Shown one piece after another: positions 35,976-37,522 of a DNA stretch of 64,000 bases; within the stretch, counting starts at the first letter, position 1; each line of letters starts with the position of its first letter. Under the pieces are notes generated by a model. It was given only the letters and a program-made list of their open reading frames with translations. It was not told the DNA's origin and did no database searches. The stretch covers positions 62,001 through 126,000 of the forward strand of contig NZ_JARUKW010000004.1 of NCBI RefSeq assembly GCF_029688845.1. The letters are read 5' to 3'. Source of the stretch: Natronococcus sp. A-GB1 (GTDB taxonomy: Archaea > Halobacteriota > Halobacteria > Halobacteriales > Natrialbaceae). Both the position numbers and the translations under genes were made by a program.

Positions 35976-36201
35976 CTGACGGAACGAAAACAGAAGTTTG
36001 CCGCGATCCTCAAGCCAGGAATCGGCGCCGCGTTCGTCCGTAACTGTGGGCCACCCTCTCTCGACCGAACCGAACATATCGACTTGCTTAGCGTAGTAGG
36101 TGACCGATTTTCAGCCGCTGCAATCCAGCCAAGTGTTACCAAAAATTCACTAGATACCTATCTTACCTCTTACATCGTTTCTCGGTAAGTGGTGAGAGAC
36201 C

Positions 36202-37320
36202 ATGAGTGAAGAAATGCGATCGAAAGAGGGAATCATCGAGGGGACGGTTTCGACCGATAAAGGCGATGACGTCGAGGCGGCAGTAATAACCGCTACTGAT
36301 ACCGAAACGGAGGAACTCGAAGCGATAATCACGACGGAGGGGAGCGGTACGTACTCCGTTTCGGTCGGACCTGGTACATACGATGTGCGATGCGAACAAA
36401 TCGGGTTCGAGACCGACGAGCAATCCGTCACCATCGGTGAGGATACGACGGAGACGCTGGACATCACGCTATCCGAACTGGCGTCCGATGCGGCGAGGGA
36501 GATGGCCGATACCCTCGAAATCGGCCTTCTTGCCAGCGGCGATCACGCGACGGTCGGCGGTGGTTTGGACAACGAGGCCCGCGGCAGGTACGACACGGTC
36601 GCCGGGGGATGGGGCAACGTAGCCGACGGTCAGGCGGCGACAGTCAGCGGCGGAGCGAGAAACGAAGCCAGCAACACCGACGCGACAGTTGGCGGTGGCG
36701 TCGGAAACAAAGCCAGCGGCTTCCGAGCGACAATCGGGGGAGGAGGTGGAATTAGTGGAGCCGGAAACACGGCAAGTGGCTCGCACTCGACAGTCGGGGG
36801 CGGGCGAAGGAACCATGCGAACGGTGGTTTGGGAACGGTACCTGGAGGTTCGGAGAACGTTGCGCACGCCAATAATTCGTTCGCAGCCGGCCGGAGAGCG
36901 TACGCGACTCATGAAGGGGCAGTGGTGTTCGCTGACTCCAGCGATGCCTACCAGACGTCGGACGGCGAGAACGAGATCAGATCACAGATGCCGGTCTTCG
37001 CGCCGGCGTTCAACTCGACAAGCGCTACATCGGCGAAAACGAACGTCGAATCGGTCGATCCCGAAACGGTGCTCGACGGCGTCGAGGACTTGGAGATCAC
37101 CACGTGGAAGTTCAGACACAACGGCACCGGAAAACACATGGGACCGATGGCCGAGGAGTTCGCCGAAACGTTCGATCTTGGTGACGACGATGAATCAATC
37201 TCGACAGTCGATGCCGAAGGGGTTGCACTCGCTGCGATCCAAGGCCTGTCGAAGAAGCTCGCCGAGAGGGACGACCGAATCGCGGAGCTAGAGAAGCGAC
37301 TCGCCGCCCTGGAGTCGTAG
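36202..37320 (+). CDS. Beta-roll (YadA-head-like) protein with C-terminal S74 chaperone-like domain
   Basis: 372 residues. Residues 10-92 form a carboxypeptidase-regulatory-like beta-sandwich (GTYSVSVGPGTYDVRCEQIG). Residues 112-235 hold about seven to eight repeats of roughly 14 residues built on TVGGG..N.A.G, like trimeric autotransporter heads. From about 276 the sequence (TWKFRHNGTGKHMGPMAEEF, then ISTVDAEGVALAAIQGLSKK) matches the S74/tail-fibre intramolecular chaperone, ending in a coiled coil (350-370). No signal peptide or membrane anchor is visible. Codon use is less GC-biased than its neighbours, suggesting transfer from bacteria or phage. Confidence 0.82.
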   Translation: MSEEMRSKEGIIEGTVSTDKGDDVEAAVITATDTETEELEAIITTEGSGTYSVSVGPGTYDVRCEQIGFETDEQSVTIGEDTTETLDITLSELASDAAREMADTLEIGLLASGDHATVGGGLDNEARGRYDTVAGGWGNVADGQAATVSGGARNEASNTDATVGGGVGNKASGFRATIGGGGGISGAGNTASGSHSTVGGGRRNHANGGLGTVPGGSENVAHANNSFAAGRRAYATHEGAVVFADSSDAYQTSDGENEIRSQMPVFAPAFNSTSATSAKTNVESVDPETVLDGVEDLEITTWKFRHNGTGKHMGPMAEEFAETFDLGDDDESISTVDAEGVALAAIQGLSKKLAERDDRIAELEKRLAALES

Positions 37321-37357
37321 GTTGGTTTCACGAGACGGCTCTCGTCGACGACCAACC
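37320..37357 (+). terminator. Two-part hairpin after the beta-roll gene
   Basis: The outer stem GGTTGGT/ACCAACC encloses an inner stem ACGAGA-CGGC-TCTCGT, starting at the last base of the stop codon. No T-tract follows, so it may terminate transcription or stabilise the 3' end. Confidence 0.4.
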
Positions 37358-37522
37358 CAAATCTCCGCGGGAAGTACGGCGTAAAGAGCCCTTGTCTGCC
37401 ATGCGGAAACAGTACCAGTAGAAAGAATCGGCGTTCTTTTGTCAGTTCTATCCTCTCGCCATCCCTGTCAGTATTCGTAAGAGAATCCCTCGATACTACC
37501 ACAACGTTATTACTCACGACGT

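Follow-up and report, generated by a model that had tools for sequence, protein, structure and literature searches.

A candidate self-cleaving trimeric fibre of the haloarchaeal beta-roll/S74 family in Natronococcus sp. A-GB1

Within the 64,000-nucleotide stretch of Natronococcus sp. A-GB1 analysed here (the window), a single gene encodes a protein which is best read as an orphan trimeric, surface-type fibre or adhesin of the haloarchaeal beta-roll/S74 family that cleaves itself (probability about 0.6). Intramolecular chaperone self-cleavage is best known from phage tail spikes. On this reading, the self-cleaving trimer chaperone of phage spikes, MYRF and predatory bacteria is also used by cellular archaeal proteins, which form a separate family, and no reports on archaeal S74 fibres were found in the open-access literature. 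Among the options that a first-pass annotation had offered for the protein, the orphan adhesin fits best. The gene and its flanks contain the following features:

36087..36201, plus strand: upstream block travelling with the gene, conserved in G002 and in the copy that a Halococcaceae MAG has at a different locus
36202..37320, plus strand: whole gene, with CarboxypepD_reg, YadA-type beta-roll, S74/ICA chaperone and C-terminal helix, 372 aa
36235..36474, plus strand: N-terminal carboxypeptidase-regulatory / CnaB-like beta-sandwich, residues 12-91 (Pfam, Foldseek)
36535..36927, plus strand: YadA/UspA1-type left-handed beta-roll with 15-residue repeats, residues about 112-242
36937..37020, plus strand: neck from roll to chaperone, residues 246-273, '..RSQMPVFAPAFNST', kept in close relatives, with low model confidence
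37021..37317, plus strand: S74/ICA intramolecular chaperone domain, residues 274-372 (Pfam, domain model, fold matches)
37021..37023, plus strand: Ser274, predicted nucleophile, with which the released chaperone would begin (alignments; PMC8326128)
37036..37038, plus strand: Lys279, predicted general base of the Ser-Lys dyad, at spacing 5 as in S911/K916 and S587/K592
37204..37314, plus strand: C-terminal helix, expected trimeric coiled coil, residues 335-371, pLDDT 96-98 in the S74 model
37320..37357, plus strand: terminator-like stem-loop at the 3' end, z -1.9
37321..37389, plus strand: downstream block travelling with the gene, delimited by the extent of homology

The N-terminal part of the protein possesses a small beta-sandwich, as the first-pass annotation had noticed, which matches PF13620 CarboxypepD_reg at residues 12-91 (Pfam, 6.5e-14) and was placed by Foldseek with CnaB2 and transthyretin-like domains. 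The YadA-head-like beta-roll proposed for the middle of the protein was recovered, with the UspA1 adhesin head 3pr7 as the best structure match (E 2.8e-17). Seven T[VI]xGG repeat starts are present, at residues 117, 132, 147, 162, 177, 197 and 212, against at most three in shuffled sequence (10,000 shuffles); the run of repeats therefore stands, while its period is 15, with one interval of 20, and not the 14 first given. In the full-length model, which is weak (pLDDT 61), a beta-sandwich and a series of short strands can be made out. Pfam detected no DNA-binding or enzyme domain, NCBIfam gave no match and PHROGs a single weak one (0.005).

Towards the C-terminus, PF13884 Peptidase_S74 is matched at residues 278-324 with 29.9 bits against a Pfam cut-off of 22, which agrees with the S74 chaperone domain suspected from the sequence, and the same family is matched by all 57 of the aligned S74 domains. 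The domain model, built on the alignment of these 57 rows (the window protein and 56 others), reached a pLDDT of 86.8, with 96-98 along the C-terminal helix, and every one of its top 12 PDB matches is a chain of an ICA chaperone of known structure, with MYRF 7dc3 ranking first (2.3e-4), followed with weaker E-values by 4uw8 of T5, 3gud of GA-1 and 3gw6 of endoNF. In BFVD, the matches were S74 proteins from phage and giant-virus sources, YadA-like heads being present in some of them as well. The catalytic Ser and Lys have been reported to lie five residues apart in MYRF (S587, K592) and endoNF (S911, K916) (PMC8326128), and S274 and K279 of the window protein show the same spacing of 5. Moreover, in profile alignments S274 pairs with the Ser that opens 3gud, the released chaperone chain of GA-1, as well as with the MYRF nucleophile position (PMC8326128). 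The Ser-Lys dyad is conserved in 35 of the 37 haloarchaeal rows, one of the two exceptions lacking both residues and the other being a gap, and the predicted cleavage site reads SATSAK, in which the Asp that usually follows Ser is missing. Judging from the alignments and the predicted ICA fold, the window protein likely trimerises and then cleaves itself before S274.

In the proposed maturation, three chains would associate at their C-termini via the S74 (ICA) chaperone with its coiled coil, and the beta-roll, probably together with the N-terminal beta-sandwich, would then lock into a stable trimer. After the chaperone trimer has formed, Ser274 and Lys279 would cut between Thr273 and Ser274 and free the chaperone, leaving a mature trimer whose chains, each about 273 residues long, might present the beta-roll as a binding surface.

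The open reading frame 36202-37320 opens with an ATG, upstream of which just two further codons are open in frame, and therefore no in-frame signal peptide has been overlooked. A simple pattern scan, by which Tat motifs, membrane segments and anchors were assessed, found no Tat motif, TM segment or C-terminal anchor in the window protein, and the absence of a signal peptide noted earlier is upheld by both results. Since the protein has none of these and no gene for an exported partner adjoins it, its surface location is proposed by analogy, and a surface-fibre role is our best guess on that footing. The beta-roll/S74 family appears to be mainly exported, because about half of the haloarchaeal S74 loci carry a Tat-type motif, often preceded by a short coiled coil, and several bacterial relatives start with signal-like segments. 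Among the haloarchaeal forms without a signal, six have an Mtd_N-like start, G018 and G082 begin with bare repeats, and the window's group begins with CarboxypepD_reg, as does, on another branch, L217 (G340). All six signal-less Mtd_N-like genes (L019, L063, L057, L210, L213, L064) adjoin a gene whose product has a Tat signal and GYGG-like motifs, a pattern found by looking, and these products are possible export partners of the Mtd_N-like S74 proteins. No such gene lies beside the window gene, L049, G002, L217, G018 or G082.

A wider scheme, which is doubtful as it stands, would have a self-cleaving chaperone of phage type build and proof-read haloarchaeal surface fibres in the cytoplasm, after which they would be exported as folded trimers via their own Tat signal or a Tat partner; some of them would pair with a recruited sheath-less tail-tube protein as a non-contractile surface appendage, and the window protein would be a signal-less member. 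Folded proteins are the cargo of Tat, and the family raises the testable question of whether haloarchaeal trimers are folded and cut inside the cell and then exported whole.

T4-gp19-like tube genes lie directly upstream of an S74 gene in L019 (11223-12898), L063 (9465-11140), L057 (2691-5322) and L056 (17007-19131). The sheath gene is absent from three of these four genomes (G140, G143, G051), and their tube looks like an orphan recruited for another use. In addition, gp19-like tube homologues of 190-192 aa in L229 (from about 1375) and L230 (from about 1381) have a twin-arginine signal at the start and are apparently exported, as far as this signal indicates. The tube-gene and Tat-partner neighbourhood patterns were noticed by inspection, without a statistical test. 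A gene for a CARDB-domain protein is located immediately downstream of S74 in L052, L061, L065, L067 and L051 (seven members, one cluster). As well, an IS200/IS605-type element, with a Y1 transposase identified by Pfam, apparently interrupts the S74 gene at L051 6777-10804; such elements were rejected as carriers of the family, this being one insertion in an S74 gene and the others chance neighbours.

The S74 type is present in 31 of 391 Halobacteria genomes and 19 of 86 genera, which is the patchy rather than wide vertical distribution that had been expected, and a relative with both roll and S74 occurs in 11 of the 125 genomes of the family. A single-query scan of the genome contigs, in which such a query reaches close kin, gave two relatives only. 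The S74 tree has few columns and weak inner forks; 36 of its 37 haloarchaeal rows fall in one branch (support 100/99), whose neighbours are bacterial proteins of Deinococcota and Chloroflexota together with a group from low-GC viral contigs, and the window groups with G002, G302 and L049 (99/99). Closest outside the haloarchaeal clade are secreted bacterial beta-roll/S74 proteins. The direct bacterial or phage import put forward earlier is not borne out by this phylogeny, which puts the window S74 inside a well supported haloarchaeal clade; the ultimate ancestor of the gene was probably bacterial, and on the evidence of the tree it reached Natronococcus via haloarchaea. One haloarchaeal S74 protein (G063, L064 9071-10441), which carries the standard SDARLK motif, falls outside the haloarchaeal clade and represents a second, separate S74 lineage.

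The window gene sits between elp3 and usp, a universal stress protein gene, beyond which birA and a class I (W/Y) tRNA synthetase gene are found. Four species of the same genus have an elp3-usp gap of about 150-200 bp, from which the gene is absent. In G002 the gene follows elp3, is 95% identical to that of the window and is cut by the contig end, while the Halococcaceae MAG copy (L049, about 77-79% identity) lies near rpoB, a different locus, and its homology with the window spans 36087 to 37389 and stops there. A frameshifted copy in G302 (L208 7520-8640, minus strand) occupies a third chromosomal place. As homology ends at short flanks and the copies lie at different loci, what moves is one gene together with its short flanks. 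The upstream block 36087-36201 contains an inverted repeat, perhaps an operator, which is perfect with 15-bp arms in G002 (L070) and decayed in the window; the block was rejected as a repeated element in the genus, where only the window locus and G002 have it. The first-pass annotation had described several hairpins at the 3' end, of which one strong stem was found (37320-37357, z -1.9), and this is weakly kept in the 79%-identical relative. The less GC-biased codon use remarked on before is evident in GC3, which is 0.68 in the gene against 0.87-0.92 in its neighbours. With dN of 0.027, dS of 0.283 and dN/dS of 0.10 against G002, and dN/dS of 0.30 against L049, the gene is under purifying selection.

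An origin as the fibre of a contractile injection system or (pro)virus carried by the window genome, which had also been suggested, is very unlikely. S74 genes are contained in eCIS operons (PMC8213781), the S74 gene of four relatives directly follows a tail-tube gene, and some relatives' genomes have a sheath elsewhere; however, the window's own genome contains neither the sheath PF04984 nor the tube PF06841, and an injection system is excluded for it. It also has no second S74 gene, and core genes flank the window gene on both sides with no provirus nearby, so that the description of the gene as an orphan holds. Moreover, the full protein has zero matches in 50,697 phage records, the N-domain alone has no match there, and no halovirus relative was found. 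The viral-contig matches cover the S74 domain and nearly all lack the beta-roll (one case has it), and none was recognised as haloviral. The window gene is neither a phage remnant nor part of an injection machine.

The lack of a signal may also be explained by a cytoplasmic protein, whose ICA domain would, like that of MYRF, trimerise and cleave within the cell and whose N-terminal part would act in the same place. ICA domains work in other settings, as MYRF illustrates (PMC3742443, PMC8326128). This reading gains from the first rank of MYRF among the fold matches and from the same signal-less start of G340 on another branch, but the Tat signals of many relatives and the absence of any DNA-binding or enzyme domain make it rather improbable. 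Beta-roll heads and CarboxypepD_reg/CnaB-like domains, both present in the window protein, are typical of exported proteins and likewise argue against it. Less probable again is a folded trimer without its own signal which uses Tat by riding along with a partner that bears a signal and is encoded at another place; Tat handles folded proteins and the six Mtd_N-like relatives have such a partner next door, yet these are six cases with a loosely defined motif found post hoc, and neither the window gene nor the five other signal-less or closely related loci have a partner gene beside them. That the gene is a decaying, non-functional horizontal acquisition might be read from its low GC3, its patchy occurrence, the sister species without it at the equivalent site and the frameshift in G302, but this is highly improbable, with the gene intact in G000 and L049, the G002 copy cut just by the contig end, the low dN/dS against G002, and the dyad and repeats kept.

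The surface fibre proposed here resembles the known ICA chaperones (endoNF, T5 L-shaped fibre, GA-1 neck appendage, MYRF) in its predicted fold, long C-terminal helix, dyad spacing of 5 and C-terminal place after a beta-rich trimer-type domain, while it differs in the YadA-type roll and CarboxypepD_reg head ahead of S74, in SATSAK in place of SDxxxK, and in its archaeal chromosome. It shares the S74 domain with eCIS-associated proteins (PMC8213781), whereas the window genome has no injection-system genes. Head repeats are shared with the trimeric autotransporter adhesins YadA and UspA1; in contrast to these, the window protein has no signal peptide and carries S74 in place of a C-terminal membrane anchor. 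In Bdellovibrio, self-cleavage and surface location have been shown for S74 fibres with the SDxxxK motif (PMC10769870). The MAT fibres of this bacterium, like the window protein, are cellular and end in S74, being trimeric in Bdellovibrio; they possess a signal peptide and a conserved 130-aa domain, are about 1,000 aa long and function in prey recognition (PMC10769870), whereas the window protein is short, lacks a signal and has CarboxypepD_reg as its first domain. Allomeiothermus WP_013159675 and Herpetosiphon Haur_5099 ('tail fiber domain-containing') have a signal-like N-terminus, lack CarboxypepD_reg and stand outside the haloarchaeal S74 clade, but, as in the window protein, their beta-roll is followed by S74 of the same subfamily, with 35-40% identity over 60-70% of the query, and their genes are plasmid-borne and do not adjoin phage genes.
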